From NCBI GenBank assembly GCA_937899075.1, contig CALDJX010000208.1, forward strand, positions 1-64,000: 64,000 bases of DNA. The letters are read 5' to 3'. The stretch is from an uncultured Planctomyces sp. Its GTDB lineage: Bacteria > Planctomycetota > Planctomycetia > Planctomycetales > Planctomycetaceae. The notes beneath the pieces were generated by a model. The model saw nothing but the letters and a program-made list of their open reading frames with translations, had not been told where the DNA came from and searched no databases. Both the position numbers and the translations under genes were made by a program. Positions 42,348-51,571 of the stretch are shown here, piece by piece; the stretch's first letter is position 1, and each line of letters begins with the position of its first letter.

Positions 42348-42493
42348 TGACGCAAAGGCGCGAAGACGCAGAGCTTCGCAAAGGCGTTTTAAGAAATACA
42401 TCTTGAGGTAAGAGGATTTCCGACCTGGGCTTATGACTCGCCCGAATATGGAGCCCTTCGCGTTTCTTAGCGTCTTTGCGACTTTGCGTCAGA
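42348..42493. repeat. CGCAAAG-family inverted pair
   Basis: TTGACGCAAAGGCGCGAAGACGCAGAGCTTCGCAAAGGCG opposite CCCTTCGCGTTTCTTAGCGTCTTTGCGACTTTGCGTCAGA. Confidence 0.8.
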
Positions 42494-46646: not shown

Positions 46647-47813
46647 TTGATGACGGCATCGGTAGTGATGGTGCTTCTGGCGATCGTAAATGCTCCTCAG
46701 GTCGAAATTTCGACAATCGACGGTGCACGACATGCTGGAACTCTGACGTCGGCCGACGCGACTTCGTGGAAAATCGTCGTCGACGGAAAGCCAGTCGAAG
46801 TCGTCATGTCGAGCATTCTGGAAGCTCGACTTCAGACAAAAGGCGAGCCCGTACCAAAGGCGCCTCATGAAACCGTTCTGACTGACGGCTCTCGCATCGG
46901 GACATCGTCGGTCACTCTTGAAGGCGACAAACTGACCATCGCCGCAGCGGCCACGGAAGCTTTGACGATTTCCCGCTCGGCCGTCGGAAACATTCGGTTG
47001 TCCGAATCGCCCAGCAGCGTGGATGAACAATGGACAGAACTCCTCGACCGCGAACGGCGTGAAGACTGGCTCGTCCTTCGCAAGCAGGACAAGCTGGATT
47101 TCGTTCCTGGAGTCGTCAGCCGAATCAACGACACGCACGTCTTCCTGCTGCTTGACGGCGACACCGTCCCCGTACCGCGAGAGAAAGTTTTCGGAGTCAT
47201 CCTGCGACAACGCCAGGCCAGTGAATCAAAATCGGCCGGCATCATTGAACTCGTCAGTGGCGACCGGTTGGCGGTCCGTTCCGTAGTTAGCAAAGGAACC
47301 GACTTCACGTTGCAACTGGCCGCGGGCCCGTCGATCGTTGTGCCGGTGCAAAGCGTTCGAGTTTTCGACTTCAGCGCTGACAAGCTGACCTGGCTGTCGT
47401 CGCTGAAGCCGCGAGACCTCAAACATGAATTTCGATTCATCGATCCTGCGGCACCGCTCAAAAACGATCAGGATGTTTGGGGAGAAGAGCTTCGGCTTGG
47501 CAACCAGACGTTTACCCGCGGCGTCTGCCTCAGATCAAAAACAACTGTGCGATACCGTTTGAACGGCGACCACAGCCGGTTTGTGGCTCTCATGGGAATT
47601 CAGCACGGCTACGCTGGCGACGTCCACGTTGAAATCTCGGCCGATGGCCAACGGCTACTGACTCAGGACGTAACGCCTCAGGATGAGGCGCCTTTTGAAG
47701 TGGACCTGGATGTCTCGGGTAAGTTCGTTCTGGAGATTCTTGTCGACTACGGAAAAGTCGAAAGTGACATCGGCGACCATCTCGTTCTGGCCGAAGCTCG
47801 ACTGCTCAAGTAG
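46647..47813 (+). CDS. NPCBM-like domain protein
   Basis: C-terminal 'LGNQTFTRGVCLRSKTTVRYRLNGDHSRFVALMGIQ...GDVHVEISADGQRLL...VDYGKVESDIGDHLVLAEARL'. Confidence 0.8.
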   Translation: MMTASVVMVLLAIVNAPQVEISTIDGARHAGTLTSADATSWKIVVDGKPVEVVMSSILEARLQTKGEPVPKAPHETVLTDGSRIGTSSVTLEGDKLTIAAAATEALTISRSAVGNIRLSESPSSVDEQWTELLDRERREDWLVLRKQDKLDFVPGVVSRINDTHVFLLLDGDTVPVPREKVFGVILRQRQASESKSAGIIELVSGDRLAVRSVVSKGTDFTLQLAAGPSIVVPVQSVRVFDFSADKLTWLSSLKPRDLKHEFRFIDPAAPLKNDQDVWGEELRLGNQTFTRGVCLRSKTTVRYRLNGDHSRFVALMGIQHGYAGDVHVEISADGQRLLTQDVTPQDEAPFEVDLDVSGKFVLEILVDYGKVESDIGDHLVLAEARLLK

Positions 47814-47827
47814 AGAGTTCGCGTGTG

Positions 47828-48194
47828 TCTGACGCAAAGCCGCAGAGACGCGAAGGCTCGCAAAGACGTCGTTTTTCCGACAGTTTACTAAGGAACGTGT
47901 CGTGAATAATTATTCCGAAATGATCAGAAGAATCTAACCACAGAGGCTCAGAGGCACAGAGAAATACTCTCGTGTCAAACTCTGTGTCTCTGTGCCTCTG
48001 TGGTTAGAAACGGGAAGTTGTTGTCAACACGTTCCTGAACTGATGTTCGAGTCTGAGACAACTCTCGAAAGCATCATTAATAAGATCTCAATCATGTCGA
48101 TTTTAGCAATCGCTCTTCAATGGGCAGCAAGCAGAACGCAAGCATGTTTCGCACTCTTTGCGAACCTTCGCGTCTCCGCGTCTTTGCGTCTGAC
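47828..48194. repeat. CGCAAAG-family inverted pair, right arm inside protease CDS
   Basis: TCTGACGCAAAGCCGCAGAGACGCGAAGGCTCGCAAAGACG (47828-47868) opposite CTCTTTGCGAACCTTCGCGTCTCCGCGTCTTTGCGTCTGA (48154-48194). Confidence 0.85.
47888..48039. mobile_element. MITE-like element with TIRs related to the 162-bp family but a different core
   Basis: Left CTAAGGAACGTGTCGTGAATAATTATTCCGA; right CGGGAAGTTGTTGTCAACACGTTCCTGAA; core CTAACCACAGAGGC..AGAGGCACAGAGA / TCTGTGTCTCTGTGCCTCTGTGGTTAG. Confidence 0.7.
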
Positions 48195-49878
48195 GATTCT
48201 GGCAACCAGCATCCTGTTGCCTGCTGCAGAGTTCGCGAACGCCGCCGAACCTGTCGTCGCAAAAGCTCAGCAACAACGCGTCGATGTGCTTAAGAAGATC
48301 TCACCCGCCGTGGTAGCCATCTTCGGAGACGGCGGCCAGGGTGGCGGTTCGGGAGTTGTCATCAGTGCGGACGGTTACGCACTCAGCAACTTCCATGTGA
48401 CCAGTGGATCTGGCGACTTCATGAAGTGCGGTCTCAATGACGGAGTCCTCTACGACGCCGTCATCGTCGGAATCGATCCGACTGGCGACGTTGCGTTGAT
48501 CAAGCTGCTTGGTCGAGACGACTTTCCGTTTGCGACGATCGGCGACAGCGACAAAGTAAAGGTCGGCGACTGGGCCTACGCGATCGGCAATCCGTTCCTC
48601 CTGGCAACAGACTTTCATCCGACGGTGACTTACGGAATCGTCAGCGGCGTGCACCGCTATCAATACCCGGCAGGATCGTTTCTCGAATATGCCGACTGCA
48701 TCCAGGTCGATTCTTCGATCAACCCCGGCAATTCCGGAGGGCCATTGTTCAACGACGACGGAGAACTGGTTGGCATCAACGGACGAGGTTCATTCGAAAA
48801 GCGAGGCCGAGTGAACTCAGGCGCCGGTTACGCCATTTCGATCAACCAGATCATGCACTTTCTCGATCACCTGCGCAGCGGCCGTATCGTCGACCATGCG
48901 ACGCTCGGAGCAACAGTCACATCCGACGGCGATGGGCGAGTCGTCGTCTCCAGCATTCTGGAATCTTCAGAGGCTTACCGACGTGGCTTACGGCTCGATG
49001 ACGAAATCGTGTCGTTTGCTGGTCGCAATATCCGATCGGTCAATCAGTTCAAGAATGTGCTGGGCATCTACCCGAAGGGGTGGCGGCTTCCTCTGACCTA
49101 TCGTCGAGACCAGCAGAAGTATTCGGTGAAAGCTCGGCTGCGAGGCGTTCATACGAAAGCCGATATGATGCCAAAACAGGGTCCCGGCGGCCCGCCCAAG
49201 AATCCTCACAAGGATGGCGACGAACCCGAAAAAGAGAAGAAGGACACGACGCCAGAAGCCTACCGTCACATGTTGGTGAAGAAGGACGGCTTCGCGAATC
49301 ACTGGTTCAATGCCGAGGAGCAAAAACGTTTGCTCCCACTGGTGACTCGATGGGGCGATTTCGCAAACCTGAATGGCTTGTGGAAAATCACCGGCCAGAC
49401 CGGCGACGGCGACGACTTTTCATTGACACTTAGTGATCGAGGCCTCGGCCTTCAAATGCGGAATGACGTCTTCTTCCAGCCGCTCGACGGGTCCGACTTT
49501 CTCGACGAGCCACCCGGCAGCGGCGGACTTCTGGTCGCGATGCACCACCTTCGTCTGATGCTGCAGAAGCAGGCCGATGGTTTCTCCGAGTTCTACTACC
49601 TCGGTAGTGAGCCGCTGGATCTGACCGGTGAGATGGTCGACGTCCTGGTTACCACTCTGACCGGAGTCGAAACACGCTGGTACTTCGCCCGAACTCCGGC
49701 CGCGTTTGTCGGGATGTCCTGCCAGATCACCGAAGACAGCGAGGAATGCGAAGTCTACTTCGGCACAGTCGACCAGTTCGAAGACCGCTTCTTCCCCGGC
49801 CAGATCATCGTCCGCTCCGGCGGCCGAGAATATCTGCGACTGAAAGTCACAAAGACCGAACTCGCAACAACACCGTAG
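48094..49878 (+). CDS. S1C (HtrA/Deg-like) serine protease with PDZ and C-terminal extension
   Basis: 'GGSGVVISADGYALSNFHV', 'DPTGDVALIKLLG', 'CIQVDSSINPGNSGGPLFNDDGELVGIN', PDZ; start uncertain (ATG 48094 or TTG 48184). Confidence 0.88.
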   Translation: MSILAIALQWAASRTQACFALFANLRVSASLRLTILATSILLPAAEFANAAEPVVAKAQQQRVDVLKKISPAVVAIFGDGGQGGGSGVVISADGYALSNFHVTSGSGDFMKCGLNDGVLYDAVIVGIDPTGDVALIKLLGRDDFPFATIGDSDKVKVGDWAYAIGNPFLLATDFHPTVTYGIVSGVHRYQYPAGSFLEYADCIQVDSSINPGNSGGPLFNDDGELVGINGRGSFEKRGRVNSGAGYAISINQIMHFLDHLRSGRIVDHATLGATVTSDGDGRVVVSSILESSEAYRRGLRLDDEIVSFAGRNIRSVNQFKNVLGIYPKGWRLPLTYRRDQQKYSVKARLRGVHTKADMMPKQGPGGPPKNPHKDGDEPEKEKKDTTPEAYRHMLVKKDGFANHWFNAEEQKRLLPLVTRWGDFANLNGLWKITGQTGDGDDFSLTLSDRGLGLQMRNDVFFQPLDGSDFLDEPPGSGGLLVAMHHLRLMLQKQADGFSEFYYLGSEPLDLTGEMVDVLVTTLTGVETRWYFARTPAAFVGMSCQITEDSEECEVYFGTVDQFEDRFFPGQIIVRSGGREYLRLKVTKTELATTP

Positions 49879-51439: not shown

Positions 51440-51571
51440 CTGACGCAAAGTCGCGAAGACGCAAAGGACCGCAAAGATTCAAACTTAAATGAATGGAGTA
51501 TTTGCCGTCAGCCGAAGCTTCGCCTCTTCAGATTCTTTGCGAATCTTCGCGCCTCTGCGACTTTGCGTCAG
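51440..51571. repeat. CGCAAAG-family inverted pair
   Basis: CTGACGCAAAGTCGCGAAGACGCAAAGGACCGCAAAGA opposite TTCTTTGCGAATCTTCGCGCCTCTGCGACTTTGCGTCAG. Confidence 0.85.

Follow-up and report, generated by a model that had tools for sequence, protein, structure and literature searches.

In an uncultured member of the Planctomycetaceae, one arm of a dispersed inverted repeat, the CGCAAAG element, lies in frame before the hydrophobic core of the signal peptide of a secreted protease, and on balance this arm seems to have been exapted as the n-region of that signal peptide, translation seemingly starting at an ATG located 5′ of the arm. The stretch of DNA analysed (the window) is 64,000 nucleotides long and belongs to contig C208 of a draft planctomycete genome, G000 (8.0 Mb, 745 contigs). 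The named relatives are uncultured Planctomycetaceae known through metagenome assemblies. The features of the locus are listed in Table 1.

Table 1. Features of the protease locus and its upstream region (positions in the window)
Feature	Position	Strand	Basis
NPCBM/NEW2-domain protein, upstream neighbour	46647–47813	+	ORF list; Pfam PF08305, E=1.9e-21
Left arm of the CGCAAAG element, non-coding	47827–47866	-	Inverted-repeat search, arm-pair survey
Insertion inside the loop	47891–48036	no strand	Inverted-repeat search; none in congeners
ATG, favoured start codon	48094–48096	+	Conserved in frame in 5/5 species; simulation
22-codon leader, ATG to ANLR	48094–48159	+	Length and frame kept, sequence varies
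Right arm of the CGCAAAG element, coding FANLRVSASLRL, putative signal-peptide n-region	48155–48194	+	In frame in 5/5 species
TTG inside the right arm, rival start codon	48184–48186	+	TTG in 5/5 species
Signal-peptide hydrophobic core and c-region, cleavage predicted at FANA|AEP	48190–48243	+	Sequence and alignment reading
Mature protease with trypsin-like domain, PDZ and a long C-terminal extension (to the stop codon)	48244–49878	+	Pfam, NCBIfam, PDB relatives

The protease is of the S1C type and DegP/HtrA-like. It carries the Pfam domains Trypsin_2 (E=2.6e-31) and PDZ_2 (E=3e-6), and its best PDB relatives are HtrA and DegP. Like S1C proteases of the DegP/HtrA group, it possesses a trypsin-like domain with the NPGNSGGP motif and a PDZ domain, and it is an exported protein; it differs from them in having one recognised PDZ, a long C-terminal extension and NCBIfam scores under the named cut-offs (213 bits for TIGR02037, where the cut-off is 416).

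The stop codon of the NPCBM gene is located 13 nt 5′ of the left CGCAAAG arm, and the order of the NPCBM and protease genes is kept in the congeners (in L013 by DNA match). The two arms of the element are 40 nt long, 90% complementary and 288 nt apart. The insertion inside their loop was found only in the window genome among the congeners compared; its outer arms (47891–47909/48018–48036; AGGAACGTG.../...CACGTTCCT) enclose a nested hairpin of the CACAGAG family (47933–47961/47980–48008). A similar CACAGAG palindrome is present 5′ of the same protease gene in Schlesneria (L074). As a candidate for a known RNA family, the hairpin gave sub-threshold microRNA-precursor matches only, which were judged spurious; the terminator scan found none.

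According to the first-pass annotation, the right arm reads in frame within the signal-peptide region of the S1C protease. The codons at 48154–48192, CTC TTT GCG AAC CTT CGC GTC TCC GCG TCT TTG CGT CTG, translate, in the long-ORF frame, as LFANLRVSASLRL and confirm this. The arm itself stands as described, with one correction to its coordinates of 48154–48194: position 48154 is a codon boundary, and the repeat begins at 48155. The TTG said to lie inside the arm is found there, and a start at this codon would give M-RLTILATSILLPAAEFANA|AEP. The arm is best read as the charged, Arg-containing n-region of the signal peptide and not as its hydrophobic core.

The genus comparison comprised five other genomes, four of them with the protease gene; the five species with the gene, including that of the window, are related and are all represented by draft metagenome assemblies. 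The arm precedes the hydrophobic core in the same frame in 4/4 congeners (ANLRVSASLRQ, ANLRSSVTLRQ, ANLRVSAALRQ and ANLRTSAFLRQ). The left arm is also present in all four, partly deleted in L011. In the locatable orthologues of other genera no CGCAAAG arm was found at the protease, and most of these proteins have Met directly before the core. Since the arm is present in every congener with the gene and missing from the located orthologues of other genera, its capture appears to be ancestral to the genus and not recent. No empty site was found within the genus, so the insertion is inferred from the other genera.

The further proposal of the first-pass annotation, that the export signal or the start was shaped by a repeat insertion, is supported, and the two results that would speak against it were sought and not found. 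Leader and arm occur together in 4/4 congeners and the located orthologues of other genera have neither; among all of these there is no orthologue with the leader but without the repeat. A start 3′ of 48194 cannot hold across the five species: in L014 the stretch from the arm TTG to the cleavage site is free of ATG, GTG and TTG codons, and in the other species starts 3′ of the arm would leave truncated signal peptides. Because of the absence of such codons in L014, the start is placed at or before the arm TTG.

About 50 further sites in this genome match the right arm (E down to 3e-11), which is therefore no chance match; a query with the hairpin gave 82 matches in the window genome. These copy numbers derive from searches and samples of G000 and are not a full census. 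In the window and 49 sampled loci together, 38 pairs of arms stand head to head and 20 arms are solo; the consensus of the pairs is TCTGACGCAAAG...CGCAAAGA-loop-TCTTTGCG...CTTTGCGTCAGA, with loops mostly of 3–5, 12–15 or about 43–78 nt. The loops of about 43–78 nt look mutually unrelated (L109, L112, L123, L124, L125, L131, L134, L142 and window positions 42384–42455); those of the 12–15 nt class are similar to one another. At a contig end, L106 (G000:C159:15351–15420) repeats the 8-nt arm unit (CTTTGCGT-like) in tandem. Of the copies examined, most fall outside genes, and the clear in-frame cases number two.

Seven of the 61 genomes searched have an arm match, two of them in the genus of the window. 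Near-identical arms are found in G011, G069, G027, G017 and G065, which are other genera of the family, in a patchy pattern that points to spread between lineages. A search for a plasmid origin of the repeat gave no match; its own sequence strings did not occur in the literature searched, which does not prove the repeat undescribed. In the relative G003, a whole-genome search with the hairpin query found the protease arm as the only place at E<=1e-3, with 31 nt identical to the query, and a profile search of a 1.27 Mb sample found few other arms, that of an isomerase gene among them. The window elements at 42349–42490 and 51442–51569 are missing from the syntenic stretch of G003, and their flanks gave no base-by-base alignment when examined for target-site duplication; the elements of L107, L110 and L142 are likewise missing from G003.

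The second clear in-frame case belongs to another gene. In a secreted ankyrin-repeat protein (G000:C536; L119/L162), the left arm is read as SDAKVQRREGSQR before the signal core, and in its G003 counterpart (L163, G003:C5) the arm is read, also in frame, as SDAKMQKRKHSPR. The changes between the two species are mostly charge-conserving, and in other genera the signal peptide of the ankyrin homologues is short. A parallel is seen in another genus, where the same NPCBM/protease interval (L016, G017:C57) holds an unrelated GGTCATTGG palindrome that has 38 candidate sites across the G017 genome. Its left arm is located just past the NPCBM stop and its right arm precedes the signal core in frame, the repeat lying about 130–300 nt 5′ of the protease VAIF motif. 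Different palindromes are present in this intergenic region in several genera (L016, L023, L025, L062 and L074); apart from that of L016, they lie outside the frame.

The proposed course of events is as follows. An inverted-repeat element, or two of its arms, would have entered the gap between the NPCBM and protease genes in the ancestor of the genus. The end of the right arm would have fallen at the old start codon, so that the signal peptide lost its own start, and translation would now most likely begin at ATG 48094, 22 codons before the ANLR of the arm. Translated as an Arg-containing n-region preceding the hydrophobic core, the arm would have become a part on which export depends, and the protease would still be exported.

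Either of two conserved starts, ATG 48094 or TTG 48184, could be used. An in-frame ATG lies 22, 22, 21, 22 and 22 codons before ANLR in the five species, and the frame between them is open in each. This ATG is favoured because it and the open frame have been kept despite a leader sequence near saturation (pS 0.60, pN 0.63); in a neutral simulation, which assumes a star tree and was run for an ATG picked after the data had been seen, all five frames were open with the ATG kept in <=0.0007 of runs. No amino-acid selection was seen on the 22-codon leader (dN/dS about 1.1). Across the leader, stops interrupt both remaining forward frames in most species, and the distance from the left arm to the ATG ranges from 58 to 227 nt (227 nt in the window genome versus 58–133 nt in the congeners). 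No Shine-Dalgarno-like motif was seen 5′ of either ATG or TTG. It is possible, though distinctly less probable, that the TTG is the real start: the end of the repeat would have put its own TTG in place of the old ATG, the upstream sequence and most of the arm would be a 5′ untranslated leader, and the length of the signal peptide would be unchanged. The TTG is conserved in 5/5 species at the place of the ATG of other genera, and its distance of 20–22 codons from the cleavage site would give a signal peptide close in length to those of several other genera (21–25 aa). The unrelated arm at L016 also has a TTG, which would give MVIGHSGNRLLLALAF, and no in-frame ATG was seen there; repeat codons at N-termini are often attributed to misannotated starts (PMC3733652). 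However, a TTG start leaves the open frame and the constant ATG-to-arm length in five species unexplained, TTG is a weak start codon, and in each of the five species more pairing is predicted around it than around the ATG.

Conservation of the protease arm extends to its bases. Synonymous divergence over the 11 arm codons is 0.214, versus 0.56 on average across the mature gene (2/377 windows are as low), and the left arm, which is non-coding, shows conservation as well (p 0.08–0.19 in the four species keeping it whole). Because its synonymous sites are conserved, the arm is probably retained also as an element of the mRNA leader or of the DNA. A conserved hairpin between the left and right arms was rejected: within-species pairing is no better than between-species pairing, and there is no left–right covariation, with no pair changed on both sides. 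The arm is thus conserved at the nucleic-acid level as well as in its peptide, with no visible sign of a conserved paired stem. As a control, the six genomes of the genus each carry a conserved solo CGCAAAG arm 37–40 nt 5′ of the start codon of an AP_endonuc_2 isomerase gene (mean p 0.11; L130/L270–L275). The frame of this arm is not kept, G002 having a stop 15 nt before the ATG and G005 a frame shift, and the idea that every in-frame arm is coding was rejected for this gene; the comparison suggests that the isomerase arm is a leader element. The protease arm, too, might be kept only as a nucleic-acid element of gene leaders (an operator, an mRNA-binding or a processing site), its frame being incidental. 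The conserved synonymous sites, the conserved left arm and the isomerase arm, maintained without a kept frame, are all consistent with this, but it is rather unlikely, as the start has to be at or before the TTG, making at least the last part of the arm coding, the reading frame persists at the protease and not at the isomerase, and a conserved hairpin lacks the covariation that would support it. Conservation might also be mimicked, without selection, by recent insertions that struck a hot spot independently of one another, or by gene conversion with other copies. The different palindromes in this intergenic region of several genera and the near-identical arms in other genera would fit such an origin, but the insertion end and the frame are identical in all five species, G003 and G005 are almost without other good copies and the isomerase arm is likewise conserved, which makes it improbable.

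A nucleic-acid role can accompany either start, and the degrees of confidence given to these readings therefore overlap. Along with the favoured reading, an ATG start and an arm serving as n-region, a broader one may be advanced very tentatively: the CGCAAAG arms would be a conserved, sequence-specific gene-leader element of the genus, acting through a regulator or at the RNA level, and at the protease the arm would both be kept base by base and encode the front of the export signal. If the arm does have this dual role, planctomycetes would have drawn repeatedly on palindromic repeats for new start regions of secreted proteins. The locus would offer a concrete route by which scattered repeats create or shift start sites and export signals, with a hint that the arms themselves play a role in gene leaders. 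It also brings together evidence usually missing where repeats are read at bacterial N-termini: an arm in frame in five species that other genera lack, a control locus at which the frame is not kept, a second gene and a parallel case that arose independently with another repeat.

Several known repeat systems resemble the CGCAAAG element in part. Rickettsia palindromic elements (RPEs) are small palindromic repeats found in frame in unrelated proteins, in some cases N-terminally, as cited in PMC3733652 and PMC10969869, where expression of N-termini bearing RPE-1 is also cited as shown. An RPE is a palindrome of about 100–150 nt in frame in many unrelated ORFs, and CGCAAAG is not of this kind; compared by description, its copies are mostly intergenic, a single arm is coding and forms the front of a signal peptide, and the phylum is another. 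REP repeats, for which N-terminal gene overlaps are on record (PMC3733652), and REPINs are, like CGCAAAG, dispersed short palindromes, often in opposite pairs and near gene ends. CGCAAAG has no unpaired GTAG/CGTC tag, its terminal GACG/CGTC lying in the paired arms. Mobilisation by a RAYT was rejected: the 12 Y1_Tnp loci of the genus have no full arm nearby, the best match being 21 nt at 81%. Bacterial MITEs (ERIC, BOX and others) are miniature inverted-repeat elements able to lengthen host ORFs (PMC10969869); CGCAAAG shares with them terminal inverted repeats, many copies and no coding capacity, and differs in that no target duplication or source transposase was identified for it. In-frame N-terminal palindromes are already known from RPEs, REPs and MITEs (PMC3733652, PMC10969869), and what the CGCAAAG arm adds is conservation across species, a control and a parallel case.
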